A DNA stretch of 31,192 nucleotides from the IMG/VR virus record IMGVR_UViG_3300028177_000020, positions 1 through 31,192 of that record. One strand, written 5' to 3'. The stretch is from a virus. The notes under the pieces are model-generated. The model ran no database searches, was not told where the DNA came from, and saw only the letters and a program-made list of their open reading frames with translations. Positions 1 through 29,715 of the stretch are shown piece after piece. Positions within the stretch are counted from its first letter, which is position 1, and each line of letters opens with the position of its first letter. Position numbers and translations under genes: made by a program.

Positions 1-267
1 CTCAATTTTCCAACAGTACTCGCAACCTGCAGGGCGTTCTCCGCATTGCATTTGGTAACGGTCTTGTTTTTTTTGTTCAGTGTTATGTAGTGCTTTTGGA
101 TTTGCTATCACATCATCAACAGGAACATAGTGCGGCAATGGATGATGACAACTAGTAGTCATGCCAGATCCCAACCATATAGTTGCGTTGTACCACTTTG
201 CTCCGCAAAAACTAGCACTTTTGCTATCCAGTACTCTGTGTTTATAATCTAAATCTGTCTCGTTCAT
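1..267 (-). CDS. Radical SAM/twitch-like protein, N-terminal part (cut by window edge)
   Basis: An open frame of 89 codons starts at the ATG at 267-265 and runs off the left edge without a stop. The visible part matches the N-terminal region of the complete radical SAM protein at 2393-3799: SASFCGAKW against SPSFCLAKW, then SCHHPLPHYVP against SCYHPPLHEIP, NPKALHNTEQKK against NPSSLHNTSQKK, and GCEYCWKIE against ECQYCWRME. The four cysteines shared by the pair (residues 21, 40, 82, 85 here) are laid out as in twitch/SPASM-type auxiliary iron-sulfur sites. The CX3CX2C radical SAM motif should lie just beyond the edge, so the enzyme class is inferred from the paralogue. Its ATG overlaps the TGA of the upstream gene as ATGA, suggesting translational coupling. 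Confidence 0.8.
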   Translation of the reverse strand, partial: MNETDLDYKHRVLDSKSASFCGAKWYNATIWLGSGMTTSCHHPLPHYVPVDDVIANPKALHNTEQKKQDRYQMQCGERPAGCEYCWKIE

Positions 268-1361
268 TTAATTGCGTGTTTGAATTCATTTAAAGTTCTA
301 TTTTTTAAGTATTTAATAAATTTAGTTTTTGCAAACTGTGCATTTATTTTAAATCTTTCCTTATGTAACTTCCATTTATTAATAGTGTCGTTTTTATTTG
401 TAAATAAATGCATGTTTAATTGTACTGCCGCTTCCAATCTAGACGCCGGATTTGTAATATTATCATAACTGTGATCTACTACATCATCAAACATATCAAA
501 GCCCATGTTTCGCAGATGTTGTACTGTTCCTGCGGAACTTAGTAAAATTGGAAAATTACACCCATACACACTATTAATATACTTTTCGGTTAACATGCCT
601 TCTTCAACGTCATAGAGTGTTTCTGTAACAAGTTCAACTAAACTATGTCGATACAAATGTCGTAGTGTATTATTGAAGTTACTAGCATTGTGTATTATTG
701 GCACAGATGTTGTTCCTTCTAGCATTTTATAAGGCTCAGACAAGTGTAATTTGTTTATGTCTGCGTACATACGTGAGTAACCACGTATTCCAATATCTCT
801 ACATTCAGTGTTGTTGTCAAAATCCCAAGGCACATACGACATTAAATCTGCCTTTTTGTTAATATCCAAATGCACGGCTGATATCTTAATATGCTTATCT
901 AACTGTAATCCATACAAATAACTTGTTAAAAATAATCGGTGCTCGCGCATCTGTCTGTTCAGTGATATACCAATTTCTTTAACGTCCTTATCCAACACAG
1001 GCTCAACACTACTATAATTATATATCCCAGCACAATTGTTTATCCAATGTACAAACTTAATATTCTTTGAATATTTAAACGACTTTGAACTGTAATAAGG
1101 ATGAAACACAACAAACAGCGTATTTGGATGTTTGTGTGCCAATAATTGAATATTCTGATCCACTGGTAAATTATTTCCGTCAAATTCAAACATGTTGAAC
1201 GCATCCATTACACCCAATAACACTAAGTCGCTTTCAACTTTGTAATTCTTTCTAAGACCATACCCGTAACAATAGTCACAGCCTGTTGCTATGCTTGTAC
1301 ATTCTCTAAAAATTTCTTTAATGAAATTATCATTATGTGTAAATTTTTCTTCTATGTGCAT
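264..1361 (-). CDS. Putative GT-B/fucosyltransferase-like protein (divergent)
   Basis: The 365-residue product has no clear family match by eye. Its C-terminal third carries LTEKYINSVYGCNFPILLSS followed by LRNMGFDMFDDVVDHSYDNI (about residues 257-304). This is a divergent version of the TEK...P...L...GF..F signature also present in the proteins at 1363-2406 and 3792-4766. That signature resembles the nucleotide-sugar-binding end of GT10/exostosin-like GT-B enzymes. The N-terminal half has a small cysteine group (CTSIATGCDYC) with no assigned role. The start lies one base after the stop of the previous gene, and the end overlaps the next start as ATGA. No strong Shine-Dalgarno sequence is visible, so coupling is likely. 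The coding call is firm; the glycosyltransferase assignment is an inference from the paralogous motif and position. Confidence 0.75.
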   Translation of the reverse strand: MHIEEKFTHNDNFIKEIFRECTSIATGCDYCYGYGLRKNYKVESDLVLLGVMDAFNMFEFDGNNLPVDQNIQLLAHKHPNTLFVVFHPYYSSKSFKYSKNIKFVHWINNCAGIYNYSSVEPVLDKDVKEIGISLNRQMREHRLFLTSYLYGLQLDKHIKISAVHLDINKKADLMSYVPWDFDNNTECRDIGIRGYSRMYADINKLHLSEPYKMLEGTTSVPIIHNASNFNNTLRHLYRHSLVELVTETLYDVEEGMLTEKYINSVYGCNFPILLSSAGTVQHLRNMGFDMFDDVVDHSYDNITNPASRLEAAVQLNMHLFTNKNDTINKWKLHKERFKINAQFAKTKFIKYLKNRTLNEFKHAIK

Positions 1362-1362
1362 A

Positions 1363-2406
1363 TTAAAATAAATTTTCTAGTTTATTATTTTGTTCATTTG
1401 CAAATTCATAGAAACGTAACTTATTATGATTAAGTGCTGGTATCATATCATTATATATGTCTAATAAATTACAATTTGGTTCATTGTCTATCCATTGTAG
1501 TACTTTAATAATATTAGAAACTATTGTATTCTCATTAGTACTCTCAAGGTCACTAAATGGAAAATAATGCGTAAATGTTTTAAAACCATGTTTTCGTAAC
1601 CATGCATAGGTTCGTGGATTACCATTTATAATGAACGGCCTTTTTCCAATAATAGGCTTAAATGTTTTTTCCGTTACGAATATTGGATCATACGGCGATG
1701 CTATAGTTTCGCTAACAACATTCATGAAATGATCTTTCCAATACTTCATATCGCCCAAACTAAGAAGATCATGCGGTATTCCAAAATCGTTACTTGTATC
1801 GTCCAAATCAAACCAATGACCCGTTTCAACAAAATCCTCATTCTTTTCTTTAATTGAAACATGCATATCAGTGTCATTGCTTGCTCCTAATGTCACTACT
1901 GCATGTTTATTGAGATTTTTGGCAATAATACGCGTTACTAAGTCTGTTCTATGCGAAGTGGGTTTTCTATTATAATTTATAAATTTATATTTTATATTCG
2001 TTAATTTGATTTCGTCATCGGTATAATCTTTAAACTGTTGAGTAATTGCCCACGAAATAAAATTAAATTCATGCGGAGAATGATCAAAGTTTCCAAGAAA
2101 ATATATAGTTGGACTACCAAACTGATGAAATAGTTGAATAATTTCAGGGACTGATATTTGTGTTGGATCAACAGTGGTTAGAAAAAACACATTATCAAAA
2201 TTTCCTGTCATGTCAATGACTTCATTAAACACATCATTGTCCATTCTTGGACCAAACCACGTTCCATTAATGAACAAATTTTTATCCATTGGAAACGCAT
2301 TTGAAATTTGACCTTTAATGTTGTTTATTACTTTATTTTCTAATATTCCCCATATATTATTTGGGAATGTTACTCCGCAATACACTACATTATTATAATG
2401 TTCCAT
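1363..2406 (-). CDS. Putative GT-B-type (fucosyltransferase/exostosin-like) glycosyltransferase
   Basis: The 347-residue product shows two hallmarks of GT-B sugar transferases of the fucosyltransferase/exostosin kind. One is a central strand-turn KFINYNRKPTSHRTDLVTRI (about 145-165). The other is a C-terminal FVTEKTFKPIIGKRPFIING followed by LRKHGFKTF (about 250-280), where the TEK and P residues normally contact the nucleotide sugar. The N-terminal half (GVTFPNNIWGILENKV) is unlike the other two family members in this window. There is no signal peptide or membrane segment, so a cytoplasmic enzyme is expected. The first 14 bases overlap the end of the radical SAM gene at 2393-3799, which ties translation of the two together. 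Donor and acceptor cannot be read from sequence. Confidence 0.75.
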   Translation of the reverse strand: MEHYNNVVYCGVTFPNNIWGILENKVINNIKGQISNAFPMDKNLFINGTWFGPRMDNDVFNEVIDMTGNFDNVFFLTTVDPTQISVPEIIQLFHQFGSPTIYFLGNFDHSPHEFNFISWAITQQFKDYTDDEIKLTNIKYKFINYNRKPTSHRTDLVTRIIAKNLNKHAVVTLGASNDTDMHVSIKEKNEDFVETGHWFDLDDTSNDFGIPHDLLSLGDMKYWKDHFMNVVSETIASPYDPIFVTEKTFKPIIGKRPFIINGNPRTYAWLRKHGFKTFTHYFPFSDLESTNENTIVSNIIKVLQWIDNEPNCNLLDIYNDMIPALNHNKLRFYEFANEQNNKLENLF

Positions 2407-3799
2407 AGTACTTACACTCGTTCCACCATTCTAACATTTCAGGAAAAGTTTCCAAAAAATTAGTCATATGGCGTTTATCCGACTCATTAAAGAATCTATA
2501 AAAATCTGCTTGTTGTTGTTGTTTGTATTTAACGCTTAATGGTTCTTGTGCCCATGCAATATCACGTTCCAATCGTTTTACCTCGTAATCTTTGAATCCG
2601 TGATATAAATCATCTTTGGTTTCTAAATTATCATTCATCCAATCACGTAACTTATTTAACTTCATTACATAAGGCGCCGGCAATAGTTGCATACTTTGCC
2701 AACTTGGCGTTCTTAGTACAGGAGTATCAAACCATACACGCTGAAAGTCTTTACTATATGTTTTGCGTAACTCTAAAATACCTTCCATTAACTTATCTAG
2801 GTTACTAACAGACAAGTTATTCATAGTAATGATGAATGTAACACTACTATAACTAGGAACTTCTTCTAAGAACTGATGCACTCTTTTCCAAAGTAAATCA
2901 AAGTCCAATCCCTCACGCAAGTATTCTGCTTGGTTGCCCCACGTGTCTACACTAACGTATTGCATGAAGTGTTCAATCTTACCTGTGCATAGTAATTTAA
3001 CATAATCTAGGTACTTGTTCCACAATGCATCAGTTACACTAAGATTACTCGTAACGTTGAGATGCAAATTAGACTTAGGATTTTCAAGTACATAATCAAA
3101 TACCTTGTACGTGTTCTTATCCATTAGTGGTTCGCCACCTGTCATACGGAAGTGTTCTAATTCCTTGTATAACTCTGGCCACCATTCCCAAAATGCATCT
3201 ACGTATGGGTTCTCTTGGCTGTGTGGTATTGGTAAACGACTACCAACAAAATGTTCTAATGCGTTGTGTGGTGTACTTGTTGGGTATGCCCCTAAGTCCT
3301 TTATCTCAGACATCCATGTACTAGAAAATTGTGGACTGCAATAACTACATTTTAAATTACACGCATTATTAAAGTTTACTTCAACATAACTTGGAGTAAT
3401 GTCTTTACTTGGATTTTTTACAATGACATCAAAATCTTTAGATGCCCATGGTTCTCCCGAACGGTAATGTCTATCGCTTAAATTACCATTACTTTCCATA
3501 CGCCAACAGTACTGACACTCATCTGGCTTTTTGCCTTGCATCATTAGTTTACGTATTTCTTTTTTCTGTGAAGTATTGTGTAAACTAGACGGATTACTTG
3601 ATAGTGTTTCTATTGGTATTTCATGTAGTGGCGGATGATAGCAAGAGTTGTTTAATCCTGTTGGTAAATGTAGACTAACCTGTTTCCACTTTGCTAAACA
3701 AAAACTCGGACTAACTGTATCCAATTTTGCTTTTGCTAATTCTGCATCTGATAAGAATTTACTCTTAAACCCATCGCCACTTTCGTCTCCTTTATTCAT
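2393..3799 (-). CDS. Radical SAM protein with N-terminal twitch/SPASM-like cysteine set
   Basis: The 468-residue protein contains the canonical radical SAM motif CNLKCSYC (Cys147, Cys151, Cys154; CX3CX2C), which binds the [4Fe-4S] cluster that cleaves S-adenosylmethionine. TGGEP follows at 220-224 and HLNVTSN further on, both typical of the partial TIM barrel. Before the core lies a region with Cys34, Cys53, Cys95 and Cys98 (FCLAKW...SCYHP...CQYCW), spaced like the auxiliary cluster ligands of SPASM/twitch domains but placed N-terminally. Similar twitch radical SAM proteins are known in marine T4-like phages without an assigned reaction. Here it sits between two GT-B-like genes and overlaps both (8 and 14 bases). 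This suggests a role in making or modifying a sugar or glycoconjugate, but peptide modification cannot be excluded. A truncated paralogue lies at 1-267. Confidence 0.9.
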   Translation of the reverse strand: MNKGDESGDGFKSKFLSDAELAKAKLDTVSPSFCLAKWKQVSLHLPTGLNNSCYHPPLHEIPIETLSSNPSSLHNTSQKKEIRKLMMQGKKPDECQYCWRMESNGNLSDRHYRSGEPWASKDFDVIVKNPSKDITPSYVEVNFNNACNLKCSYCSPQFSSTWMSEIKDLGAYPTSTPHNALEHFVGSRLPIPHSQENPYVDAFWEWWPELYKELEHFRMTGGEPLMDKNTYKVFDYVLENPKSNLHLNVTSNLSVTDALWNKYLDYVKLLCTGKIEHFMQYVSVDTWGNQAEYLREGLDFDLLWKRVHQFLEEVPSYSSVTFIITMNNLSVSNLDKLMEGILELRKTYSKDFQRVWFDTPVLRTPSWQSMQLLPAPYVMKLNKLRDWMNDNLETKDDLYHGFKDYEVKRLERDIAWAQEPLSVKYKQQQQADFYRFFNESDKRHMTNFLETFPEMLEWWNECKYYGTL

Positions 3800-4766
3800 A
3801 ATAAAATTCTGTATCTAATATCTCATTGTTTGTTAAATTGCACAATATATCATAGTTGTGGTTAAGTGTTTCTTGCATCTCGTTGTACCATTGGGCGATA
3901 GTATCATCACTTTGTGATGCAACCCAATCTATTCCTTGCTTTAAAGTATAGTAGCGTGCATCAGATTCATCTAAATCATACCCCTCACACCACCACTTAC
4001 CAAACGTTCTAAATCCTAATTTTCTTAAGTTCTTTAAAAAATATTTAGGACCTTGAATCATAAATGGACGTTTATTTAATATACACCTATATGTTTTTTC
4101 AGTTACAAAGAATGTCTTTCCACTGAAGTAGGTTTCGCATATGATTTCACAAAATATTTCACGATAACTATTGCCCAAGTCATATGCATTATCTTCCCAC
4201 AATATAGGATATACTACTTCATCTCGCGTTAATGGCAATACTTTTAAAAATTCATACACTGTATCAAAATCTTGGTAATGATGGTGTATCAAATCTTCTA
4301 TACCTACGTTACTTACATGAAAATCACTCATATAATCATAATGAAATGTTATATCACTAATATCATTGTAGTTTTTCCAAATATAACTTGCCAATCCAAG
4401 ACGTTGCCAATTTGACCTTCCAATAAATATTCCAAATATATTTTTTAGATTACTATCAGATGGTGTGTAACTTTTGCACATACATAGTGCGCCGTGTAAG
4501 ATACAATTGACTGACCGCTTTTCCTTATACTTGGAACTTGGTAATTGATTGGCAGTAACGATTTCAAATCTCTTTTTATCGACATTAAATTTCTCTGATA
4601 TTGAATCGAGCAATTTATCAACCCCCGATGAGTCGCAACATGGACCTTCCGAATTCAAATCAATTATGATTTGGTTAGTATCAGAGGTCATTAGTTCTGA
4701 TATTATTCCTATTATGACTTCGGATTCATTCCATATCTTCGTATCACTCGTGATTGCAGTTACCAT
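3792..4766 (-). CDS. Putative GT-B/fucosyltransferase-like protein
   Basis: The 324-residue protein has the C-terminal signature FFVTEKTYRCILNKRPFMIQ followed by LRKLGFRTFGKWW (about 217-258). It closely parallels the protein at 1363-2406. Mid-protein IFIGRSNWQRLGLASYIW (about 112-129) occupies the place where the relative has its NYNRKP.HR segment. The N-terminal ~90 residues (DLNSEGPCCDSSGVDKLLDS) are not recognised and differ from the paralogues, so acceptor recognition may differ. The start ATGG overlaps the previous gene's stop (ATGGTAA), and a GAGGG sequence lies directly before it. A nucleotide-sugar transferase in the cytoplasm is the best guess; substrate is unknown. Confidence 0.72.
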   Translation of the reverse strand: MVTAITSDTKIWNESEVIIGIISELMTSDTNQIIIDLNSEGPCCDSSGVDKLLDSISEKFNVDKKRFEIVTANQLPSSKYKEKRSVNCILHGALCMCKSYTPSDSNLKNIFGIFIGRSNWQRLGLASYIWKNYNDISDITFHYDYMSDFHVSNVGIEDLIHHHYQDFDTVYEFLKVLPLTRDEVVYPILWEDNAYDLGNSYREIFCEIICETYFSGKTFFVTEKTYRCILNKRPFMIQGPKYFLKNLRKLGFRTFGKWWCEGYDLDESDARYYTLKQGIDWVASQSDDTIAQWYNEMQETLNHNYDILCNLTNNEILDTEFYYE

Positions 4767-5683
4767 CCCTCTGCTCTTCTAATTACGTCAATCTCTTTAA
4801 CTATTGCTCCTATATTGCGCCAATTGCTCATGTAGTGCTGTTTAAAGAATTTACTTTGTTCAGGACTGAAACTGACCGACGGCAAATCTAATTGATTGTT
4901 TAATTTCTCACCATAATCATAGAACACATCAACATCGAATTCTTTGTCTACGCCTTCCCAAATCTCTTTAAGATTATCGAACCACTGCACCTTTGTGTAA
5001 TCCCAATCAGTGAGCATAGTCATATATGTTCCTTGTCTAGCACCTAACATTGCCCAACTACCGTACTCTACATCATCGCCGACATTCTGCCATATACTTA
5101 AATGGTCCATATTACGTTTATGTACACTATCTTTAAAATCAATTAGACTAGGCTTTGCACCACGGTCTAAACACATTTTTACACCTTCTCTAAAGCCTGC
5201 ACGCCAAGCATGGAATGCACTACCATTGGGGTATGTTGTACTGTAGCAGTCATACATTGGCCAATACAGTGGGTCAAAACAAAACTCAACACACGTTTCA
5301 TTAGTTCCGTCACTACTTTCATGTGTTTGCATATTCTGTATGAACTCTTTAGTCCAACAACTAAGCCCACCATTGCCGTACATTAACCCATTGATATGAT
5401 TCTTTGCTCTCCACCTAAATACTGCACGGTCGTACTGCTCGTCTTTAATGTCTAGTTGTAGATTAAAGAACTCAGGGTCAGGTAAATTATCACCATCTAT
5501 TAATATAAAGCGTTCCGTTTGACTTGCTTCAGCGGCAGCCTTGTGCGCGGCGTCACTACCCTCTACACCATCTACACGTACAGCCCATGGAACCATGTTC
5601 TTTATCTTAACCCAGAACTCTTCCTTCTGTGGCTCATCGTAACTTAAATAAACTACATCCAAATCTGCTATATCAATTATCAT
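4760..5683 (-). CDS. GT-A-fold glycosyltransferase (GT2-like)
   Basis: The 307-residue protein begins with a strand DVVYLSYDEP. It then has RVDGVEGSDAAHKAAAEAS and RFILIDGDNLPDPEFF, the typical GT-A arrangement in which the Asp63-Gly-Asp65 (DXD) motif binds a metal and nucleotide-sugar phosphate. The block NHINGLMYGNGGLSCWTKEF (about 102-121) looks like the acceptor-side loop seen in GT2-like enzymes. HAWRAGFREGVKM follows later. There is no membrane helix, so it is probably a soluble cytoplasmic transferase. It overlaps the upstream small gene by 11 bases and the downstream GT-B-like gene by 7, consistent with one operon. Sugar and acceptor are not predictable. Confidence 0.85.
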   Translation of the reverse strand: MIIDIADLDVVYLSYDEPQKEEFWVKIKNMVPWAVRVDGVEGSDAAHKAAAEASQTERFILIDGDNLPDPEFFNLQLDIKDEQYDRAVFRWRAKNHINGLMYGNGGLSCWTKEFIQNMQTHESSDGTNETCVEFCFDPLYWPMYDCYSTTYPNGSAFHAWRAGFREGVKMCLDRGAKPSLIDFKDSVHKRNMDHLSIWQNVGDDVEYGSWAMLGARQGTYMTMLTDWDYTKVQWFDNLKEIWEGVDKEFDVDVFYDYGEKLNNQLDLPSVSFSPEQSKFFKQHYMSNWRNIGAIVKEIDVIRRAEGW

Positions 5684-5999
5684 AACTTCTTAAACTCCAA
5701 TTCGTACCTTTGGTCGAAACTATTGAAATATCATCATCACAACATGTTGTTTCGTTTCCATGTTGGGTTAACTTACTAATATCTTTGAATACCATCGTAA
5801 CTAGTACACCGTCGTTGATATACACACTATAGTTTGCTTGAGTATAGACTTCTTTGTCGACAATAATAAAATCACCATCAACTACATCCATACTATAAAA
5901 CAATGGTTTTCCATTTTTCTTATTATAGTACAGCATATATTCAGGTACTACCTTCGCAGTACGTTTCATGTTACTTACTGCTTTAAAAAAATTGCTCAT
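5673..5999 (-). CDS. Small conserved-looking hypothetical protein (108 aa)
   Basis: I do not recognise this 108-residue protein. It reads as a compact, mostly beta protein: KVVPEYMLYYNKKNGKPLFY, then MDVVDGDFIIVDKEVYTQAN, YSVYINDGVLVTM, and a polar tail with a Cys-Cys pair (TTCCDDD). There is no signal peptide or membrane segment. It is wedged between two glycosyltransferase genes with overlaps of 17 bases (upstream) and 11 bases (downstream). That arrangement supports a real gene of the same transcript. It could be an accessory subunit or a substrate of the neighbouring enzymes, but nothing in the sequence shows this. Confidence 0.7.
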   Translation of the reverse strand: MSNFFKAVSNMKRTAKVVPEYMLYYNKKNGKPLFYSMDVVDGDFIIVDKEVYTQANYSVYINDGVLVTMVFKDISKLTQHGNETTCCDDDISIVSTKGTNWSLRSYDN

Positions 6000-6798
6000 A
6001 GTGCTTGTTTAATACTTTACTAAAATCTTTGACTTGATAATGGAACGGGTACATTTGTTCAACTGTGTCAATCCTAATACGTGATTTGTTTAACTCATAT
6101 ACCATTTCCTTAGACCAATCTTCATCTTCTAGAAAGTTAATTTCCTTCTTCATATGAATCATACTTGGATAAGATGTATTAGGTAACGTTACGTTTTCGA
6201 CACCCATTATCTTACTTGCAATAGCGTACACTACATCTGTTGTTCCAGGGTCAGTGTCGCCACCTTTAATGGTTTTCTTAACAGTGTCCCAATTATTAAA
6301 TATGTCTTTAACTAAATTGAAGAAGTCTTGTGCTGTTTTACTTAAACGCCAATATGTTATCGCGTTATATACATCGGGTAGGTTATTTACGTCAAAAATC
6401 TTTCGGTAATGTCTATTAGACGTGTGTTCGTTTAAGTAGTTTCTTGCACCTGTTGAAATTACCACATCACGTTTCTCAAGCATCGTCCACCAATGTTCAA
6501 TACTATGTGGAATAATCATATCTGCTTCTAATTTAATGGTTTGTCTAAATGGACTGGCATAAAATACTTGCCAATCATTCTTTAACTTCCAATCACTATC
6601 AGGTGCTTGGTCTCCATAAGGAAATGGAACAACATAATCAAACACATCATTGGTAACATCACTAGAAGTAACCAAACAAATATTCGCTTCAGGGGTATGC
6701 AATTTAATACTACGTGCAAGTGCTAATGCACAATCTACATAATTAGTTTCTTTTGTATTGTCAGCGACAATTAAGTACCCACGTTCTTCTTTAGGCAT
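5983..6798 (-). CDS. GT-A-like glycosyltransferase with EAD in the DXD position
   Basis: The 271-residue protein has the layout of a GT-A (GT8-like) enzyme. It starts with strand YLIVADNTKETNYVDCALAL, followed by ANICLVTSSDV, then PFRQTIKLEADMIIP at about 84-97, where a DXD motif is expected. The acidic pair is Glu91-Ala-Asp93 rather than Asp-X-Asp. Later ITYWRLSKTAQDFFNLV and DPGTTDVVYAIASKI match the region that usually lines the acceptor pocket. The family seems common in marine T4-like phages, from memory. The gene overlaps the upstream glycosyltransferase by 8 bases and the following small gene by 17. Activity with the EAD variant is plausible but unproven. Confidence 0.78.
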   Translation of the reverse strand: MPKEERGYLIVADNTKETNYVDCALALARSIKLHTPEANICLVTSSDVTNDVFDYVVPFPYGDQAPDSDWKLKNDWQVFYASPFRQTIKLEADMIIPHSIEHWWTMLEKRDVVISTGARNYLNEHTSNRHYRKIFDVNNLPDVYNAITYWRLSKTAQDFFNLVKDIFNNWDTVKKTIKGGDTDPGTTDVVYAIASKIMGVENVTLPNTSYPSMIHMKKEINFLEDEDWSKEMVYELNKSRIRIDTVEQMYPFHYQVKDFSKVLNKHYEQFF

Positions 6799-7609
6799 GT
6801 ATCACCTTATTCAATGCAAACTTATTGATAAAGTGGAAGTCTGTCCCACTAATAATCGACTTGAACGGTTTCTTTGTTCCATTAACCATCTTTAAGTAAG
6901 ATATTTTAAACTTAGTATCATCCAACTGCTCTAAATCAACATCGTCATAAGCACTAGGCATTGCCCATGGTATAGTTGGTATTGCATCCAACTTATGACC
7001 ATATAAAATACTCAATGATATACTAACAACAAAGTCGTTACGCATTGGGTTTTCTCGGAACTTATATAAGTTACTATAATGTCGGTAATTATCCTTAACC
7101 ATTGTCATCAACTGGAACATTTCTTCTGCTTGTTTTGATTTTCTAAAGAACAGTACAGTTGCCCAATAATGAGGGAACTTATGTTTGCCGAATGTGTGGT
7201 AAGGAGTAAACCCATTCCTTCCAGTGATGTCATATACATCACGATGACAAAGAACATCGTAATTAGATTCAAATACTCTTAGTAATTGGTCACTGTTAAC
7301 AACATAATCACTGTCAATTACAATAGTTTCATCATACGGTGATAAGTTATATGATTGGAATCTATTCGAGTTATACCATGTCGCAATGTTACCTTCTTCT
7401 AAATGTTTGAAATTTCGTTGCCCACCAGATATGGCATCACTTAATATAAGGTTGTGTTTAAACTCCCTACCATTGATGCTTTTTTCATCTGTAATAATAG
7501 TAACAGGTAAGTCTAAGTACGTATTGACACGGTCGGCAATCCAATCTGCTTGTTCTAAGTAATCAATCTTTTCATTACTAAATGCAAATATTAAAATACC
7601 ACGAGTCAT
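6791..7609 (-). CDS. GT-A-fold glycosyltransferase (GT8-like)
   Basis: The 272-residue protein opens with RGILIFAFSNEKIDYLEQAD, a Rossmann-like first strand and helix. It continues with LPVTIITDEKS and reaches ETIVIDSDYVV, where Asp99-Ser-Asp101 is a good DXD metal-binding motif. FPHYWATVLFFRKSKQA (about 146-162) matches the strand that follows the donor site in GT8-type enzymes, and the C-terminal TDFHFINKFALNK may supply a late metal-binding histidine. It is probably a soluble cytoplasmic transferase. The start overlaps the stop of the small gene upstream by 4 bases, and the end overlaps the next glycosyltransferase by 8 bases. Confidence 0.82.
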   Translation of the reverse strand: MTRGILIFAFSNEKIDYLEQADWIADRVNTYLDLPVTIITDEKSINGREFKHNLILSDAISGGQRNFKHLEEGNIATWYNSNRFQSYNLSPYDETIVIDSDYVVNSDQLLRVFESNYDVLCHRDVYDITGRNGFTPYHTFGKHKFPHYWATVLFFRKSKQAEEMFQLMTMVKDNYRHYSNLYKFRENPMRNDFVVSISLSILYGHKLDAIPTIPWAMPSAYDDVDLEQLDDTKFKISYLKMVNGTKKPFKSIISGTDFHFINKFALNKVIHA

Positions 7610-7914
7610 CGTTGTCGACTAACCTCGTTGTACTCATGTAACCATGCATTCATCTGCTCTTGAAATCGTTCCTTCGCATCATGTAATAAGTTTTCTCTAT
7701 TCACTCTACAAGGGTTACCGTACGTATCGACTATTACAATAGTTTCATCGGTAAACATGGATAGTATTGTGATTAACTCAGTGTTTGCGCACCACATACC
7801 CCCATCCAAAGCAAATAACATCTTTGCTTCGTATTTTTCTTTAAGAACCTGTTTTGCAGATTCATAATCAAAGCGTTCTTTTATTGTTTGTATTAAATTT
7901 TCGGTATTATTCAT
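7606..7914 (-). CDS. Small hypothetical protein (102 aa), first gene of the sugar/radical-SAM block
   Basis: I prefer the ATG at 7914-7912 (product begins MNNTENLIQ). A longer frame using TTG at 7959 would start inside the terminator hairpin and add 15 unlikely residues. The protein is helical at both ends (TIKERFDYESAKQVLKEKY and LHDAKERFQEQMNAWLHEYN). Its middle, KMLFALDGGMWCANTELITI and ETIVIVDTYGNP, resembles small proteins I recall from marine T4-like phages without a known function. It overlaps the first glycosyltransferase gene by 4 bases and may be an accessory factor. Confidence 0.75.
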   Translation of the reverse strand: MNNTENLIQTIKERFDYESAKQVLKEKYEAKMLFALDGGMWCANTELITILSMFTDETIVIVDTYGNPCRVNRENLLHDAKERFQEQMNAWLHEYNEVSRQR

Positions 7915-7935: not shown

Positions 7936-7948
7936 ATACCATGCAATA

Positions 7949-7972
7949 AAAAAGGGCAATTAAGCCCTTTTT
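7949..7972 (-). terminator. Intrinsic terminator at the end of the fibre block
   Basis: A 9-bp stem (AAAAAGGGC / GCCCTTTTT) with the loop AATTAA lies 24 bases after the stop of the gene at 7996-8940. On the minus strand the stem is followed by a run of six T, the classic rho-independent form. The element is nearly symmetrical and also has five T on the plus strand, so it could act in both directions. Confidence 0.85.
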
Positions 7973-7995: not shown

Positions 7996-8940
7996 TTATG
8001 CATCAGAATAACTTACGCTTGCAGTAGGTGTTCCCCAACTGGTACTAATATATGTAGTACTAGGTTGTCTAATAGTCAAGTTACACTGAATATTAAGGTT
8101 GATTGTCTCGTCCTGTGTTGCGCCTGGGTTACCAGAACTATTTGCATTATCAAATAATTTTACTTCAATGCTAATATCCCCTGTGCCCGAGTTATATAAG
8201 TATCTGCATGTAATATAGTTCGTTGTGTACAAATATGTCGAATCGTACTGCTTGAATGTTTCTACATATGCCCCCGTTAGGTTGAAAAAACCAGTATTTG
8301 ATTCAGTTGTTACTGAACCTGAACCACCTTTTTTGTCTGTTCCTTGATATGCAGTACCTGCTAATGTAACAGATGTTGCTGGACCAGATGACCCTGCAGA
8401 TGTTAACCACACTGTGCCGAATGCAGAAATTAAATTCCCCCAGCCAATGTCTTTTGAACCAGAACCGCCGCCTTGATTAGTAAAGTTAATACCAAGCATG
8501 CCCCCACAGTTAAAAAATTCTTTAGCACTTGTATCATCTGCAAAATTTGCGGTTGCTGTAAATGTAGTATGTGTATTCCACGTTGTGGTGTTATTACTAT
8601 TTGCAGTAATATCCGTGCCATGTGCGTGTAGATTTCCTCTGTTAGTAGTAACAGTTGATATGTCAGTTGTCAAATCAGTAATTGCAGAAATTGTATTACC
8701 TGCACTGATTGTGGCATTAGTAACACCTGTCGTTGCTTGATGCGAACCAATAGTTTCAAGTCTACTTAGTAATGTTTCCCATTGTGTTGCAGTTACGGTA
8801 GAACCTGCGCTCACTGCGCTTAGTGCACTGCCTTGTCCATAACCAGTATTTCCTGATGCTGTACTCCATATTGAATTCAAACTTGTTTTGAACCCATTAT
8901 AGTGGTCGTCTAGTATTGTATTTCCTGCTGTATAAGCCAT
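7996..8940 (-). CDS. Virion structural/tail fibre-type protein (314 aa)
   Basis: The protein starts MAYTAGNTILDDHYNGF, followed by GYGQGSALSAVSAGSTVTAT and WETLLSRLETIGSHQ. This is a layout I recognise from structural proteins of marine T4-like phages. The body is rich in Ser, Thr, Gly and Asn with few charged residues. It has alternating short hydrophobic strands typical of trimeric fibre or baseplate-attached proteins, ending in SWGTPTASVSYSDA. An AAGGA Shine-Dalgarno-like sequence lies about 9 bases before the ATG. It is the last gene before the terminator at 7949-7972 and is separated from the fibre gene upstream by two small hairpins. Its exact place in the virion is unknown. Confidence 0.75.
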   Translation of the reverse strand: MAYTAGNTILDDHYNGFKTSLNSIWSTASGNTGYGQGSALSAVSAGSTVTATQWETLLSRLETIGSHQATTGVTNATISAGNTISAITDLTTDISTVTTNRGNLHAHGTDITANSNNTTTWNTHTTFTATANFADDTSAKEFFNCGGMLGINFTNQGGGSGSKDIGWGNLISAFGTVWLTSAGSSGPATSVTLAGTAYQGTDKKGGSGSVTTESNTGFFNLTGAYVETFKQYDSTYLYTTNYITCRYLYNSGTGDISIEVKLFDNANSSGNPGATQDETINLNIQCNLTIRQPSTTYISTSWGTPTASVSYSDA

Positions 8941-9036: not shown

Positions 9037-10512
9037 TTAATTGACTTTCACTATTGCCTCTACTGTGCCTGTGCCGTTCGTTGTTTTATTTTCTAATGAT
9101 CTACCAATAACATTAAATGCAGTAACTTCCGTGTCAGTTGCTGACCTTGCGTAGCCATTTCCTGCTGATACTAGTCTATCTCCCTTTTTTACCTTTCCAA
9201 TTACCTTAACTGGAACTCTTCCATTCATTGCAACTGGTGGGTGGGTATCATCTGCCCCAACACCAGCATTCATTAAATATGCAGCATTTGTACTTATAAC
9301 ACCAAATACATTGTCTGTTAATTCATCAATTGCTTCTGTGATTTCATTAATACCACCCAATTCCACTACTGTACCTGCTTCCAATACTTCATCCGATTCA
9401 AATCTCTCTGCCAAGTCAGCATAATTTGCGGTTGATGCATTTCCATTAAATGTGGTTGCATACACATTTTGAAATTTTAATGCATTTGAGCCAAAATCTG
9501 TTGTATTATTAATTGCAGGAGTAATAACGCCTGTTATTGTGTTTGAACCATCCCTTGCTACTGCTGATGCACCCGAGCCACTTGTTTGTGAATCAACGTA
9601 CGCTTTTGTAGCAATTCCCAACGCCACAGTAGGGTCAGCGTTAACAATCGCCTTGCCTGTAGCACCATCCACGGTAATAACTGGAGTTTGAACTCCACCG
9701 TCATTTACTGATAATATTAAATCACCATCCGATGTTACATTTTTAATAGTTACGTCACTTCCAGATACACTAATATTTGCATCACTGTCTGCACCAATGG
9801 ATAATCCGGTATCATTTAGCACTCCTAATGTACCACTAGTAGTATCATTTGCTCCTGAAAGTAAATAACCAGAAGCCAAAACTCCACCTAAACTATCAGA
9901 ATTGTCTGCTTGTGTGACGGATGCATCTGCTACAGTTGTTGTTAATCCAAATCCAGGCTTAATTGTTGCGAATCCTGCTATTGCAGGAGATGGAGTGAAT
10001 TCTGGGTCATCACTAATAAAACCAACCACTAAATTTTCAATAGACAATCTTAAAATGACATGGTCAACTGCACCAACATCAGTAATCGTAACTACTTCTA
10101 ATCCAGAAGTTCCAACGCCCACTGATGTTGGTGGTCCAACCAAGGTGAATGATGAACCATTATAAATATTTAATTGATTACTCCCACTATCAAACCATAA
10201 ATCACCAGCAGTCAATGAAGATGCAGGTTCGGAATCTGTTACTTTAACACTACTAATAGGTTTGAATTCAGTTCCGTTATAAACATTAAGAACTGTACTT
10301 GCAGAATCATACCACAACTGTCCTGCTAATGGACTACCCGGTGCTGATGTGTTGGAACTATTCTCGAGAATTTTAACAAAATTCTCCCCTAAGAACTCAC
10401 CATAACCTGCGTAATTTCTACCAACTATTGTGACACTACTTGTTGTGTCAATTGTACCATCTGCCACAGTTGCAAATATGCCACCATTTGTTTTATTAAT
10501 TACGTATGCCAT
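9037..10512 (-). CDS. Tail fibre protein 2, with chaperone/peptidase-like C-terminal domain
   Basis: The 491-residue protein shares its N-terminal half with the fibre protein at 12123-13454: VGRNYAGYGEFLGENFVKIL, then GQLWYDSAS, LNVYNGTEFKP, GDLWFDSGSNQL. This half probably attaches it to the virion. A middle part (DTTSGTLGVLNDTGL, NADPTVALGIATKAYVDSQ) carries the phage-fibre repeat. The C-terminal ~130 residues differ: NYADLAERFESDEVLEAGTV, DNVFGVISTNAAYLM, MNGRVPVKVIGKVKKGDRLV. This resembles C-terminal domains of the Peptidase_G2/intramolecular chaperone kind, which assist trimer folding and may cleave themselves off; that link is inferred. A late-promoter-like box lies 24 bases before the ATG, with AGGGA near the start. 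It probably helps bind the host. Confidence 0.85.
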   Translation of the reverse strand: MAYVINKTNGGIFATVADGTIDTTSSVTIVGRNYAGYGEFLGENFVKILENSSNTSAPGSPLAGQLWYDSASTVLNVYNGTEFKPISSVKVTDSEPASSLTAGDLWFDSGSNQLNIYNGSSFTLVGPPTSVGVGTSGLEVVTITDVGAVDHVILRLSIENLVVGFISDDPEFTPSPAIAGFATIKPGFGLTTTVADASVTQADNSDSLGGVLASGYLLSGANDTTSGTLGVLNDTGLSIGADSDANISVSGSDVTIKNVTSDGDLILSVNDGGVQTPVITVDGATGKAIVNADPTVALGIATKAYVDSQTSGSGASAVARDGSNTITGVITPAINNTTDFGSNALKFQNVYATTFNGNASTANYADLAERFESDEVLEAGTVVELGGINEITEAIDELTDNVFGVISTNAAYLMNAGVGADDTHPPVAMNGRVPVKVIGKVKKGDRLVSAGNGYARSATDTEVTAFNVIGRSLENKTTNGTGTVEAIVKVN

Positions 10513-10559: not shown

Positions 10560-12119
10560 TTACTCAGGCAACCACGTGACACTAACATTGCCAACTGTAT
10601 AAGACACCACTACCGTGGGGTAATCACTGCCGTATCCTCCTGCGTCGTATCCGCTTCCCGCAGTTCCATAATACGATTTTGCTATTGTTACGGTTGCTGT
10701 ATCCCCTGCGCTAACAGAATATGTAGTTGTATTAGATGTTCCCAATGATTGTTGAGTTCCATAGTTACAACCAGTGCCACCTGCCCCTGCATTATGCCCA
10801 CAATCCCCACAACTATTATTCTCAAATCTGCCTCCCACTGCACTTACTGTGGAGCCAAATCCCGAGGTTGGCACAAAGGATGATGTTGATGACCCCCAAA
10901 AATTACCCGAAGAGCAAGTCGTACATCCGGTAGATTGGCAACCTGTGGATGGTTTAAGATTTGAATTACCAGATACCGTTACCGTGATAGTACCATCTTC
11001 TGGTGCTGTCCAAGTAGATACAATGTCATTCTTCACTATGGCAGTGGGTGCGGTATACGTAGTGATTGCTGATGCGGTTGCTGATAAAGATGGTTGTCCT
11101 GATATTAAATCTGAATTGTAATAACTTATTCCGGCGCTACCACCATATCCATCACTATCATAAGAACCTTGGTATGCGCCACCAGCACCCGCACTACCAT
11201 CTGTACCCACAACGTTAAATGTTGCGCGACACCCATGGTCAACCCAAATACTAGTTCCCGTGATACCAAAACTATATCCCTCAGTACATGCAGAACTTGA
11301 ACGTTTACTTGCCACGTGCATATCGGATATGCTACTGAAATTTGTGGAAGTTGTTGAATATGCGTACCCCCAACTATCAGCGTTGTAACTTTTAGTGGTG
11401 TTTGATGCGCCCGAAACACCTCCACCGCCTCCACCGCCTGCACCACCATCCGATGTGCCACAATTGACACCATTGCCTCCATTGGATGCTCCGATTAAAC
11501 CAATATCACTAATAATTTTCGTACTATCTTTTCCATTTCTGTCACTAGCCGATAACTGTGCCCTATTACCACGACCACCGCCACCGCCACCGCCACCTGC
11601 AACCATTATAACCGTACCGTCAGATGATACTATTGAAGTGGCGCCACCGCCACCGCCACCGCCACCTGACGAACCAGTTCCACCTGCAGTTCCGCCACCG
11701 CCACCAGAAGCATATCCATTCCCTCCGGAACCGCCTGATGCCGATGATGCATGTCCTTGTCCATTACCACCGATAGTTCCTATGTTATAACTTAGTGTAG
11801 TGAATGGGTCGACATTCACGGTTGCAGTAAGAGATGCTCCATTACCGCCCGATGTGCCTCCATGCCCGCCGTCACCTCCGCCAGTGCCCCCATCAGCACC
11901 AATAATTGTTATTACTGCTCTAAAAGCACCTTTAGGGACAGTAATCGTACCCGTACCAGTTGATGCGATTGTGTTTGTGGACAATGAATACAGAACATGT
12001 TCCCATGTACCATCCTTTTTTATATAAACTTCCTTACACTGTTGCCAACTACCACCGTCTTTGATATGGACTTCTGTGGCTTCTCTCCAACTACCGGAAT
12101 ATTTAATATTCAGTGACAT
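10560..12119 (-). CDS. Glycine-rich adhesin-like virion protein with C-terminal cysteine cluster
   Basis: The 519-residue protein opens with three short repeats around Trp (SGSWREATEVHIKD, GGSWQQCKEVYIKK, DGTWEHVLYSL), a module I know from phage tail-tip proteins. Residues ~75-190 are dominated by glycine runs, including eight in a row twice, and IMVAGGGGGGGG, as in Gly-rich domain proteins. Polyglycine-helix adhesins such as gp38 of T4-like phages use such segments at the fibre tip to bind receptors. The last third has two cysteine groups, CQSTGCTTC and CGDCGHNAGAGGTGC, unusual in a fibre protein. The gene lies between two fibre genes and starts 3 bases after the first one's stop. A receptor-binding role is inferred from composition and position. 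The opposite strand reads as proline-rich frames only because of the glycine codons. Confidence 0.8.
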   Translation of the reverse strand: MSLNIKYSGSWREATEVHIKDGGSWQQCKEVYIKKDGTWEHVLYSLSTNTIASTGTGTITVPKGAFRAVITIIGADGGTGGGDGGHGGTSGGNGASLTATVNVDPFTTLSYNIGTIGGNGQGHASSASGGSGGNGYASGGGGGTAGGTGSSGGGGGGGGATSIVSSDGTVIMVAGGGGGGGGRGNRAQLSASDRNGKDSTKIISDIGLIGASNGGNGVNCGTSDGGAGGGGGGGVSGASNTTKSYNADSWGYAYSTTSTNFSSISDMHVASKRSSSACTEGYSFGITGTSIWVDHGCRATFNVVGTDGSAGAGGAYQGSYDSDGYGGSAGISYYNSDLISGQPSLSATASAITTYTAPTAIVKNDIVSTWTAPEDGTITVTVSGNSNLKPSTGCQSTGCTTCSSGNFWGSSTSSFVPTSGFGSTVSAVGGRFENNSCGDCGHNAGAGGTGCNYGTQQSLGTSNTTTYSVSAGDTATVTIAKSYYGTAGSGYDAGGYGSDYPTVVVSYTVGNVSVTWLPE

Positions 12120-28700: not shown

Positions 28701-29099
28701 ATTAAAGTCAGTAATATTTTCTGTCGTGCTTACTGAAGTAACCTTCAAAAATCCACTAGCATTTTCATTACGTTTTGGTGTGTATCCAACTAAATCAGCA
28801 AGTCTAACAACACTGTCTCTACGTTCTGCAGTATCTAAAAAGTTTTCACGTGTGTTTAAATCTTGTCTGTAACTTATCGCTTGTCCCATAAATGCCATTA
28901 CGTCAAGTAACGCAATGAATTCTGAACTCTCAACATAATCATTGAAGTCTTCTGGGTGATGCTGTCTTAGATAATCAACGAAACCTTTTCGTAGTGTTTC
29001 GAAGTTATAACTCTGAAAGTCTGCTTGATTGTATGTCTTATATAAAGAACGCCAATCCTCAATTCCAAAAATACTGGTTTGTCGACTAGATGTTGCCAT
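25719..29099 (-). CDS. 6: Baseplate wedge subunit, gp6-like (baseplate J-type)
   Basis: The N-terminus DWRSLYKTYNQADFQSYNFE, with VDYLRQHHPEDFNDYVESSE, FIALLDVMAFMGQAISYRQD and NTRENFLDTAERRDSVVRLA, is the conserved opening of T4-like gp6, the wedge protein that forms the continuous ring around the baseplate. A baseplate-J-like core follows: MNFGDGVFGDIPIGFFRSFV and APAKFHTQNRMVNGEDYNNF. At 1,126 residues it is much longer than T4 gp6 (about 660), like marine relatives. The extra length is in the C-terminal half, which ends with a short TxD-rich stretch (TTVDNINVVDSLTSDN) similar to the heptads of the next protein. AAGGAGA precedes the ATG at ideal spacing but lies inside the endonuclease gene, whose end overlaps this start by 14 bases. 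Confidence 0.92.
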   Translation of the reverse strand: MATSSRQTSIFGIEDWRSLYKTYNQADFQSYNFETLRKGFVDYLRQHHPEDFNDYVESSEFIALLDVMAFMGQAISYRQDLNTRENFLDTAERRDSVVRLADLVGYTPKRNENASGFLKVTSVSTTENITDFNGANLANVTLRWNDSTNIDWQDQFNTVMNSMMVDSQKIGKPGRTADVLGNKTDEYTVNLVSNLMPIIPFSATVNGANMDFEAVSATTANKTSVYEPSPVLNGDFNILYRNDKLGFASKDTGFFFHFKQGTLINKDFTLSDRIANRNVDINTEGVNNSDVWLYELDKTTGTVLSEWEEVDNIYAPITKQTESTVRRFFSITGRANDQITMNFGDGVFGDIPIGFFRSFVRLSNGRKYIINVGDISGVNLSVPYISRNGRAETATFIVSLTQNISNASSKESLNDIKRNAPAKFHTQNRMVNGEDYNNFPYTAFSSIIKSKAIARTNIGTSRHLDLVDPTGKYSSINTFNSDGVIFKNDASTSFTFSFDDKNDIESVIRKQIEPKIAERSTVHLYYNTFNRSSLTAIDIAWNQSTTTTNETTGYFKNTAGSALQVGSYVSDNRQFIVPNALIKFETPKTDSNGVYYFDKNNRLKQRGDLLTTDNTILWSGVKLVTLEGTNFGVGNKSDGSGPITLTNFIPTGAIPTSIVPVFNTDLPLAFEQEMLTQFELYNDFGIGYDNSIGSWYIIASANLDKSTAFSLDNAQNTSGTGIDSSWIVKFVSVDKIYTTTSRALKYFFSSIIETRFYFSGHNKIFDPKTGKIVNDFINVLKTNTQHGSNLPLSNDIKLDIIGQPTESDGFVNDFNVEISYTDEDNDNVADNPDFFDDITLNSGLVFFETIVDADGLERELPIRSNVMDTEFTSTTDPLLVLTSYPENQLFYFADEVDKFRELVSNVLVVKTNMSVKTGRQDLQFHYRHNSSNVKRINPGLTNIIDIFVVISAYYTQYKKYIQDVTNTITIPSTPTISELTSSYQTLQDSKMLSDNIVLNSVIFKPLFGNKAKDELRANISVIKVHDSLVSDSEVKSRVVSVMNDYFDIDNWDFGDTFYFSELSAYLHDQLGDIVGSVVIVPTDVNKKFGDLYEIRSASNEIFVNATTVDNINVVDSLTSDNLNGIT

Positions 29100-29715
29100 T
29101 ACTTATCTCCTTTTTACACAATCTTCCGTGCGCGAATCCATGCGGTTCTTCACCTGGAAATACCATAATCCCTATCAAACCATTATTATAATGTTTGCGA
29201 CCGTTTTCGCCTTTATTATGTGCAACTCTACCACGTTTAGTTTCGCTTATTTTTTGTTTATGCTCTTCTGTTAAAGACATACCTTTATTCCAAATATTTC
29301 TTCCTTTTAACCCTTTGCTCATATTTTTAATATGTTCATTTGATAACTTTCTTCCTCTAAGTGCATTTGCGGCGTTTTTAATATGCTGATTGGACTTTGG
29401 TTTACCTTTTTTTGCTTTAGATAACTTAAGGCGGTATTCATCCGTTATATGGTTACTTCCTCCTATAACTTTAATAAAATTTACCGAAATTTTATCACCT
29501 CTATTCTTGTGAATAGCAATATGGTCATCAGGATGTAATGCTATTAGATTTGATGGATGATGTATTTTTAAATCATCCTTGTTTTTAAACGTTGATTTTG
29601 GTTTAATATGATGCACGTGGAATCCTTTGGGTATTGTCCACCCAGGAATTAATTGATTCCAATAGTTGATTAAGTTTCGTTTATAGTTTGAAGTGTATTT
29701 GAATGTTGTTGCCAT
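29086..29715 (-). CDS. Free-standing HNH homing-type endonuclease with NUMOD3 repeats
   Basis: The 209-residue protein has an HNH nuclease core: FHVHHIKPKSTF (His35, His36), then HPSNLIALHPDDHIAIHK (Asn56, His61, His65, His69), which holds the catalytic metal. Residues ~97-175 contain two or three NUMOD3-type DNA-binding segments (SNQHIKNAANALRGRKLSNE, LKGRNIWNKGMSLTEEHKQK). The C-terminal NNGLIGIMVFPGEEPHGFAH with GRLCK is a tail frequent in phage HNH proteins. It probably cuts homologous phage genomes lacking the insertion and drives its own transfer. It is inserted between the gp25/LRR genes and gene 6, and its stop codon lies inside gene 6. A hairpin and a late-promoter-like box precede it. 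Confidence 0.92.
   Translation of the reverse strand: MATTFKYTSNYKRNLINYWNQLIPGWTIPKGFHVHHIKPKSTFKNKDDLKIHHPSNLIALHPDDHIAIHKNRGDKISVNFIKVIGGSNHITDEYRLKLSKAKKGKPKSNQHIKNAANALRGRKLSNEHIKNMSKGLKGRNIWNKGMSLTEEHKQKISETKRGRVAHNKGENGRKHYNNGLIGIMVFPGEEPHGFAHGRLCKKEISNGNI

Follow-up and report, generated by a model that had tools for sequence, protein, structure and literature searches.

What would a phage do with a dense run of glycosyltransferase genes interleaved with radical-SAM genes, directly beside its tail-fibre genes? The question is raised by one end of the window, a 31 kb stretch (31,192 nucleotides) from the genome of an uncultured jumbo T4-like phage. An earlier note on this DNA had suggested a joint pathway whose product decorates the virion's own fibres or adhesin, or else alters the host envelope. 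Our analysis indicates that many uncultured giant phages, which form a large group, encode three glycosyltransferases and at least five radical-SAM enzymes beside their tail-fibre genes; most likely these enzymes assemble and tailor an unusual coat of sugars, probably carried on a phage adhesin.

Arrangement and conservation of the operon

The ten open reading frames described in the earlier note lie where it had placed them, behind a terminator, all on the minus strand and overlapping or abutting with gaps of at most 5 bases (Table 1). The window holds only the first half of the operon, the rest lying past the end of the record; because the block extends beyond the window, the two radical-SAM genes counted earlier become at least five fixed ones.

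Table 1. Features of the block and its surroundings in the window
Feature	Position	Strand	Evidence
rSAM_B, probable N_Twi radical SAM, N-terminal 89 aa only, cut by record end	1..267	-	NF033640, E 6.9e-15, 55 bits
TEK1, GT-B-like, accessory cargo, slot 2	264..1361	-	TEK family alignment; phrog_31025, 1e-4; blast relatives in 24 loci
TEK2, GT-B-fold glycosyltransferase (predicted), GT10-like, accessory cargo, slot 2	1363..2406	-	AF2 pLDDT 91, Foldseek, VIA
rSAM_A, N_Twi radical SAM	2393..3799	-	NF033640, 327.9 bits; ortholog in 81/81 loci
TEK3, GT-B-like, slot 1	3792..4766	-	TEK family alignment
GTA3, GT-A-like glycosyltransferase	4760..5683	-	160/160 loci; AF2, Foldseek, VIA
S108, small conserved protein	5673..5999	-	141/160 loci; alignment
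GTA2, probable GT-A-type glycosyltransferase	5983..6798	-	159/160 loci; GTA1 homology; E91-x-D93
GTA1, probable GT-A-type glycosyltransferase	6791..7609	-	159/160 loci; D99-x-D101
S102, small conserved first operon gene	7606..7914	-	148/160 loci; alignment
Intrinsic terminator separating the operon from the adhesin gene	7948..7972	-	sequence; conservation in relatives
adh314, adhesin-like protein rich in Ser/Thr (30%), proposed acceptor	7996..8940	-	156/160 loci; S+T content; chromosomal cassette L246
fib491, tail-fibre-like, upstream of adh314 (context)	9037..10512	-	PHROG tail fibre matches

Across about 160 IMG/VR loci the gene order is nearly invariant (adhesin-like protein // S102-GTA1-GTA2-S108-GTA3-(slot)-rSAM_A-(slot)-rSAM_B-C-D-E-F13), and at least five N_Twi radical-SAM enzymes are encoded in 71 of the 72 loci that span the whole operon. 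Chance does not account for the arrangement, which is repeated at almost every one of these loci and also in far more diverged phage contigs (31–48% identity). The survey of phage genomes for co-occurrence and order that the earlier note had called for thus agrees with its idea of a joint unit, as does the finding of a GTA3 homologue adjacent to an N_Twi radical-SAM gene, or at most a few kb from one, in nine of ten Bdellovibrionota loci examined. The suspected association with the adhesin gene just upstream is likewise supported, that gene being kept in nearly all phage loci and in a chromosomal cassette. The TEK genes, however, are variable inserts in two slots and not backbone: slot 1 carries a TEK gene in 52 of 155 loci and is empty in 54.

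The adhesin-like gene is separated from S102 by a hairpin resembling an intrinsic terminator, AAAAGGGC TTAATT GCCCTTTTTT (approximately 7972–7948), which a generic terminator scanner missed because the stem runs into the T tract; it is kept in 94/141 loci, as against 1/141 after shuffling. A host-type sigma-70 promoter (TTTACT-N17-TATAAT) precedes S102 in 54 of 98 non-redundant loci, with no T4 late promoter there, and a T4 late promoter, TATAAATA, lies upstream of fib491 in 27/82 relatives. Judging from these motifs, the block is transcribed from a separate host-type promoter and not just together with the fibre genes. Given this early promoter and the intervening terminator, synthesis of the adhesin may differ in timing from that of the enzymes.

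Among the radical-SAM genes of some relatives lie genes for a SAM synthetase, an Fe-S assembly protein and an MTA/SAH-type nucleosidase, an enzyme able to clear 5'-deoxyadenosine; sugar-nucleotide or tailoring genes (epimerase, cytidylyltransferase, carbamoyltransferase, GDSL) also occur near the block in relatives. As a host indicator, a phage MetK was about 48–54% identical to every group compared and favoured none. A DNA search for near relatives with an 89-base query, an uninformative piece, gave no match.

Outside phages, Bdellovibrionota genomes contain arrays of 3–20 NF033640 N_Twi_rSAM copies each. These resemble the phage block in the radical-SAM family and, in some cases, in a GTA3 homologue alongside, but mostly lack GTA1, GTA2, S102 and adh. 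The exception is L246, a chromosomal locus beside rplS-trmD-rimM-pheST with the order adh-S102-GTA1-GTA2-x-GTA3-rSAM-rSAM, where an unrelated-looking 163 aa protein takes the place of S108 and where no fibre or tail genes were found; among 369 Bdellovibrionota genomes, the adh and GTA2 profiles match only this cluster. Because L246 is one MAG contig, close to whose end the cassette lies, it may be a chimaera. The bacterial GTA3–radical-SAM pairs sit amid GT2, PMT-like and other glycan genes. Of about 33 bacterial loci, 3 have a flagellin gene near a radical-SAM gene; being too few and in part selected, they were not taken as proof and were set aside.

The glycosyltransferases and radical-SAM enzymes

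The earlier reading of the gene classes stands, with differences among the three proposed GT-A enzymes. For GTA3, the most conserved glycosyltransferase of the block, the predicted structure (AF2, pLDDT 90) supports a GT-A fold with a D-x-D motif. Its best Foldseek match is a glycosyltransferase of PBCV-1 (2p6w, E 4.7e-4), a weak one that covers the nucleotide-sugar core only (query TM 0.24), and VIA gave Z 9.2 against B4GALNT1 over 138 residues. GTA1 and GTA2 are mutually homologous (hhalign 99.1%) and probably of GT-A type; Pfam and NCBIfam models make no glycosyltransferase call for either, or for the TEK proteins, and we infer the class from this homology and from motifs invariant in the alignments (D99-x-D101 and E91-x-D93). 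Sequence-profile searches of the PDB with GTA1–3 and the TEK proteins returned no credible relative. The GT-B-like character ascribed to the TEK proteins is borne out for TEK2 by its AF2 model, with a 2nzx fucosyltransferase as best Foldseek match (E 2.8e-4), and for TEK1, which has diverged furthest (15% identity to TEK2), and TEK3 by family alignment. In VIA, TEK2 ties between GT10 fucosyltransferase (Z 10.9) and T4 beta-glucosyltransferase (10.8). Because the GT10 models of Pfam and NCBIfam match no TEK protein, we call them GT10-like rather than GT10.

rSAM_A is a full-length NF033640 N_Twi_rSAM, well above the curated cut-off of 170 bits, and carries CX3CX2C plus the N-terminal C-X13-G-X4-C ... 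CxYCW auxiliary-cluster motif. rSAM C, D and E of relatives also exceed the cut-off (398, 339 and 285 bits), and CX3CX2C is present in 359/359 copies of at least 300 aa. The truncated rSAM_B is tentatively assigned to the family from its match over 72 residues and from relatives, whose truncated rSAM_B copies are 69–85% identical to it; the fragment includes the twitch Cys motif but, within the window, no CX3CX2C. Ten large records (228–364 kb) have 8–19 N_Twi matches each, most above the cut-off, which was reached in none of 14 well-known genomes.

The earlier note had reasoned that radical-SAM genes occurring freely without the glycosyltransferases would speak against a joint pathway. That objection applies by half. 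Within the block the order of both is fixed; enzymes of the same family nevertheless occur free elsewhere in the same phage genomes, where about 40 further copies are scattered in ten phages and show no enrichment around fibre or TEK genes, which speaks against a strict link.

Possible targets of the pathway

We tentatively favour, at somewhat less than even confidence, a model in which the soluble enzymes of the block glycosylate and radically tailor the Ser/Thr-rich adhesin adh314; its acceptor, order of steps, chemistry and destination on the virion are what we infer. The operon would be driven by the early or host-type promoter. GTA1–3 would add and extend sugars on adh314, and the optional GT10-like TEK enzymes would cap them with sugars differing between strains. 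The five fixed N_Twi enzymes, with SAM and Fe-S clusters, would act on unactivated carbons of the glycan or of the adhesin peptide, for instance by epimerisation, dehydrogenation or cross-linking, to give a tailored glycoprotein.

The Ser+Thr fraction of adh is 0.297, versus 0.134 across all genes, and no block protein of the window has a hydrophobic segment above threshold, hence no membrane glycosyltransferase; both were counted for a cytosolic type of protein glycosylation. After correction for phage background, adh co-varies most strongly with GTA1 (partial r 0.63, p 0.0005), a correlation that can also stem from linkage and shared ancestry. Counted in favour of adh314 as target were this co-variation, the fixed order, the L246 cassette without tail genes, the GTA3–radical-SAM pairing, the intact CX3CX2C, the SAM synthetase, nucleosidase and Fe-S genes, and a radical-SAM/SPASM block at the same tail position in the phages Atu_ph07 and Phosso. 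Counted against it were the early promoter and terminator, the scattered radical-SAM copies, the glycan-gene neighbours of the bacterial pairs, the Vibrio phage arrays and the possible chimaerism of L246. It is possible, though doubtful, that this represents a core jumbo-phage pathway, exchanged with predatory Bdellovibrionota, whose glycosyltransferases and several radical-SAM enzymes together produce a surface glycoprotein with a radical-installed modification of the sugar or sugar–peptide linkage.

The main rival, a serious but rather unlikely one, is that early-expressed glycosyltransferases and radical-SAM enzymes build or alter a glycan of the host's LPS, capsule or flagella, which would mask the cell or keep out superinfecting phages, adh being a mere neighbour in the host-recognition region. 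This would agree with the promoter evidence before S102, with the sugar-nucleotide genes near the block, with the bacterial homologues in GT2/PMT-like clusters, some near flagellin genes, with the Vibrio phage arrays near pagP or heptosyltransferase and with the published view of pelagimyophage glycosyltransferase islands (PMC7029224). Yet adh is part of the L246 cassette, and the backbone has no membrane glycosyltransferase, flippase, polymerase or polyprenyl-phosphate priming enzyme; the membrane flippase and polyprenyl-phosphate glycosyltransferase that define phage serotype-conversion gtr operons are lacking among the block proteins of the window. Alternatively, the radical-SAM enzymes might modify the fibre or adhesin polypeptide by cross-links or epimers while the glycosyltransferases act elsewhere, the operon being shared for regulation only. 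Most SPASM/twitch enzymes do act on peptides, the Atu_ph07/Phosso genes surround a protein with a conserved tail at the same locus, and radical-SAM genes appear swappable while glycosyltransferases stay (GTA3 68% versus rSAM_A 40% identity in the phage locus L224). This is improbable, however, as GTA3–radical-SAM pairing recurs on bacterial chromosomes and no Cys-rich or repeated target tail was found in the loci of the window's clade.

DNA hypermodification, with glycosylation of phage bases and radical-SAM enzymes making the base or sugar, would suit the early-type promoter, the tie of TEK2 with T4 beta-glucosyltransferase, which concerns the fold only, and the occurrence of QueE-like radical-SAM enzymes in phages. 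We consider it highly improbable: the block has no base-modifying hydroxymethylase or nucleotide kinase, and the chromosomal cassette goes with an adhesin rather than with replication genes. The presence of two small proteins beside radical-SAM and glycosyltransferase genes might also hint at a RiPP-like small-peptide pathway whose precursor would be S102 or S108. Both are, however, conserved over their whole length with no leader–core split, S108 is replaced in L246, and no precursor gene with a variable core beside a radical-SAM gene, as in a RiPP cluster, was found in the loci, making this the least probable reading.

If the product of the favoured adhesin pathway is on the virion, phages decorate adhesins by radical chemistry. 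This would bear on superinfection, on host range and on how phages evade surface defences of the host, and a large uncharacterised radical-SAM set would gain a candidate substrate close by. Were the product on the host instead, the block would be an elaborate superinfection-exclusion system. We know of no described counterpart to a radical-installed modification of a virion glycoprotein, nor of any earlier description of radical tailoring of a sugar coat on a phage surface.

Comparison with known systems

The host recognition cluster of pelagimyophages and cyanomyophages has several glycosyltransferases in a T4-like tail-fibre region, and radical-SAM cassettes are mentioned there as variable additions to a hypervariable island (PMC7029224). 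The block shares with it an aquatic T4-like tail-fibre region holding glycosyltransferases, but is a fixed jumbo-phage operon of three such genes and five radical-SAM genes under a separate promoter. The 'moraphage' jumbo lineage has core glycosyltransferases, radical SAM not being mentioned (PMC12619734), and we therefore did not adopt it as the lineage of this phage. In a collection of phage isolates, the radical-SAM family of the block was absent except for 22% matches in Vibrio phages; cultured Vibrio phages carry N_Twi arrays near pagP or heptosyltransferase genes.

Agrobacterium phage Atu_ph07 and Sinorhizobium phage Phosso share with the block the order gp25-gp6-giant tail gene-p201-fibre followed by several radical-SAM genes. 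Theirs, however, are SPASM-type with no blast similarity to ours, no glycosyltransferase was recognised there, and the genes surround a protein whose tail, DxCHxSCHASCHxSRSRR, is conserved. These partner proteins were rejected as members of the F13, S108 or adh families, being unrelated by hhalign.

In mycobacteriophages and chlorovirus PBCV-1 (A64R), virus-encoded glycosyltransferases decorate virion proteins. The block is alike in using viral glycosyltransferases, GTA3 having its best Foldseek match in PBCV-1; to our knowledge, no radical-SAM component takes part in either system. In the glycosylation of serine-rich-repeat adhesins, soluble cytosolic glycosyltransferases of several folds act on a Ser/Thr-rich adhesin. 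The block has no sequence relation that we found to that system and adds radical-SAM enzymes, but it shares the same logic, with soluble glycosyltransferases of several folds encoded beside a Ser/Thr-rich adhesin.

Extent and gene content of the operon

All ten open reading frames proposed in the earlier note were recovered where it had placed them, arranged head to tail and tightly packed. Its two radical SAM (rSAM) genes stand only in part: rSAM_A is full-length, whereas the frame at 1–267 is cut and keeps the N-terminal twitch part alone. In relatives, the operon continues past the window end with rSAM_B (450 aa), C (~427 aa), D (~403 aa), E (434 aa) and then F13 (353 aa), often followed by a carbamoyltransferase gene. 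Five to seven rSAM genes are present in 71 of the 72 loci covering GTA3 to F13, and every one of the 359 rSAM copies that reach 300 aa contains the motif CX3CX2C. Some relatives also carry SAM synthetase, MTA/SAH-type nucleosidase and Fe–S assembly protein genes among the rSAM genes, which is consistent with active, SAM-consuming enzymes.

The TEK genes, encoding GT-B-like proteins, are inserts in this operon. The slot between GTA3 and rSAM_A holds a TEK gene in 52 loci, other genes in 49 and nothing in 54; for the slot between rSAM_A and rSAM_B, the corresponding counts are 98, 15 and 30. The nearest relative, L003 (89% identity in rSAM_A), has none of the three window TEKs.

By the family model (NF033640), rSAM_A is a full N_Twi rSAM protein, and its N-terminal part contains C-X13-G-X4-C ... 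CxYCW, the spacing of auxiliary-cluster motifs in SPASM/twitch proteins. The predicted structure of TEK2 is a GT-B fold, with H. pylori alpha1,3-fucosyltransferase as the top match (Foldseek E 2.8e-4; VIA Z 10.9), in a tie with T4 beta-glucosyltransferase (VIA Z 10.8). GTA3 is predicted to be GT-A-like in its N-terminal domain (VIA Z 9.2 across 138 residues), the top Foldseek match being the capsid glycosyltransferase (GT) of PBCV-1. GTA1 and GTA2, which match no family model, are mutually homologous and both contain D/E-x-D.

The 31,192-base IMG/VR record is a fragment of an uncultured phage. Its tail genes, all - strand, encode gp25-like and gp6-like proteins, a 3,828-aa protein, p201 and fibres, and are most like those of jumbo T4-like myoviruses; the gp6-like protein shares 31–33% identity over most of its length with proteins of Atu_ph07, Phosso, SCTP-2, CBB and RaK2.

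Features located in the window and in the compared loci
Feature	Location	Organisation	Setting or basis
Chromosomal cassette, L246	G180:C21:121000-139884	adh-S102-GTA1-GTA2-163aa-GTA3-rSAM-rSAM, phage order	Bdellovibrionota chromosome, beside pheST
Phosso/Atu_ph07 candidate rSAM target	L083:15415-16335 (-); L167:16119-17009 (-)		sequence
N_Twi-like rSAM genes of cultured Vibrio jumbo phages K566, QD01	L166:14863-19265; L165:14806-24040		near pagP or heptosyltransferase-like gene
192-aa protein	window 29796-30374	near-identical LRR-like repeats (ALPDNLTV.G.LYLSGT.I)	within baseplate gene cluster
Homing-endonuclease-like gene	window 29086-29715		within baseplate gene cluster
519-aa fibre-like protein	window 10560-12119	glycine-rich, C-terminal part Cys-rich	counterpart in one relative, L003, among first 80 loci
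~49-aa gene beside p201	L010:3437-3571, and 56 further loci	ATGA overlap with p201	resembles N-terminal segment of p201 itself, as if duplicated

Spread of the block and of the rSAM family

IMG/VR searches returned 353 candidate stretches with the rSAM_A query and 134 with GTA3. In the comparison set of 160 loci, GTA3 is present in 160, GTA1 and GTA2 in 159 each, adh (directly upstream of S102) in 156, the fibre gene in 151, S102 in 148, S108 in 141 and p201 in 138, contig ends largely accounting for the losses. rSAM_A occurs in 76 of the 80 GTA3-query loci, the remaining four being short. Loci of a single phage clade are non-independent, and better evidence of linkage comes from diverged phage contigs and chromosomal pairs. 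Phage-like contigs in other MAG bins (L188, L191, L193, L200, L194/L212, L224) carry the same block; L224 combines GTs closely related to the block's with rSAMs that lack such close kinship, and hence the rSAM portion is exchangeable. GTA2, GTA3, S102, TEK2 and adh are absent from every INPHARED isolate, where rSAM matches (22% identity) are confined to Vibrio jumbo phages; three proteins of K566, one of these phages, match the N_Twi model, two above the cut-off.

The other home of the family is Bdellovibrionota (~30 of 42 genome_contigs loci), with 3–20 N_Twi rSAM genes in each of six genomes. GTA3 homologues were found in 12 of 192 Bdellovibrionota genomes, with an N_Twi rSAM gene adjacent or a few kb away in nine of ten loci examined. 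The L246 cassette, on a single MAG contig that also bears rplS, trmD, rimM, pheS and pheT (names assigned from sequences), lacks fibre and tail genes; adh and GTA2 profiles matched only the L246 genome among 369 from Bdellovibrionota. Other contigs of this group carry tandem N_Twi rSAM arrays of up to eight genes (L202, L203, L204, L189, L226) or flagellin genes within ~8 kb of N_Twi rSAM_A genes (L192, L205, L209).

Ten large phage records contain ~40 further N_Twi rSAM genes scattered outside the block, with no enrichment near fibre or TEK genes. The proposed tie between rSAM enzymes and GTs thus holds for orthologs A–E and fails for the family at large. These records (G001–G010, of L057, L004, L038, L071, L025, L063, L047, L094, L104 and L139) each yielded 8–19 N_Twi rSAM hits and 3–14 TEK-type GT hits.

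Transcription and possible targets

The terminator noted ahead of the block is indeed present in the window, and 94 of 141 loci have one separating adh from S102 (shuffled control, 1/141). Right behind it, a promoter, TTTACT-N17-TATAAT or a near variant (at least 11/12 positions matched), was found in 54 of 98 non-redundant loci, as compared with <1% of shuffles and 0–2 loci for any other gene; the window's own match is weak (9/12). Upstream of the fibre gene, 27 of 82 loci have the T4 late promoter TATAAATA; ahead of S102, it is missing from all 98 loci. Set off from adh by a terminator, with its own promoter and no T4 late promoter, the block is a separate transcription unit, probably transcribed early, we infer, by host RNA polymerase.

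The favoured reading is that the block GTs would glycosylate adh in the cytosol, the rSAM enzymes tailoring the glycan or peptide, since no membrane segment is found in any enzyme of the block, adh is rich in Ser and Thr (30%, twice the average) and, with phage background removed, adh co-varies most with GTA1 (partial r 0.63; GTA1–GTA2, 0.74; S102–GTA2, 0.64). The fibre N-terminus co-varies with no block enzyme and weakly with adh (0.15). Close behind comes modification of the host envelope, to which the promoter type, the glycan genes accompanying bacterial homologues and the Vibrio phage rSAM arrays near pagP or a heptosyltransferase all point.

Comparison with known phage loci

In the cultured phages Phosso and Atu_ph07, a gene between rSAM/SPASM genes beside a fibre gene encodes a ~300-aa protein with a conserved DxCHxSCHASCHxSRSRR tail; limited to these two phages, it looks, from its sequence, like an rSAM target. 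No published description of the present operon was found in the open literature, and the nearest report is that of pelagimyophage host-recognition islands carrying GTs and rSAM cassettes (PMC7029224).
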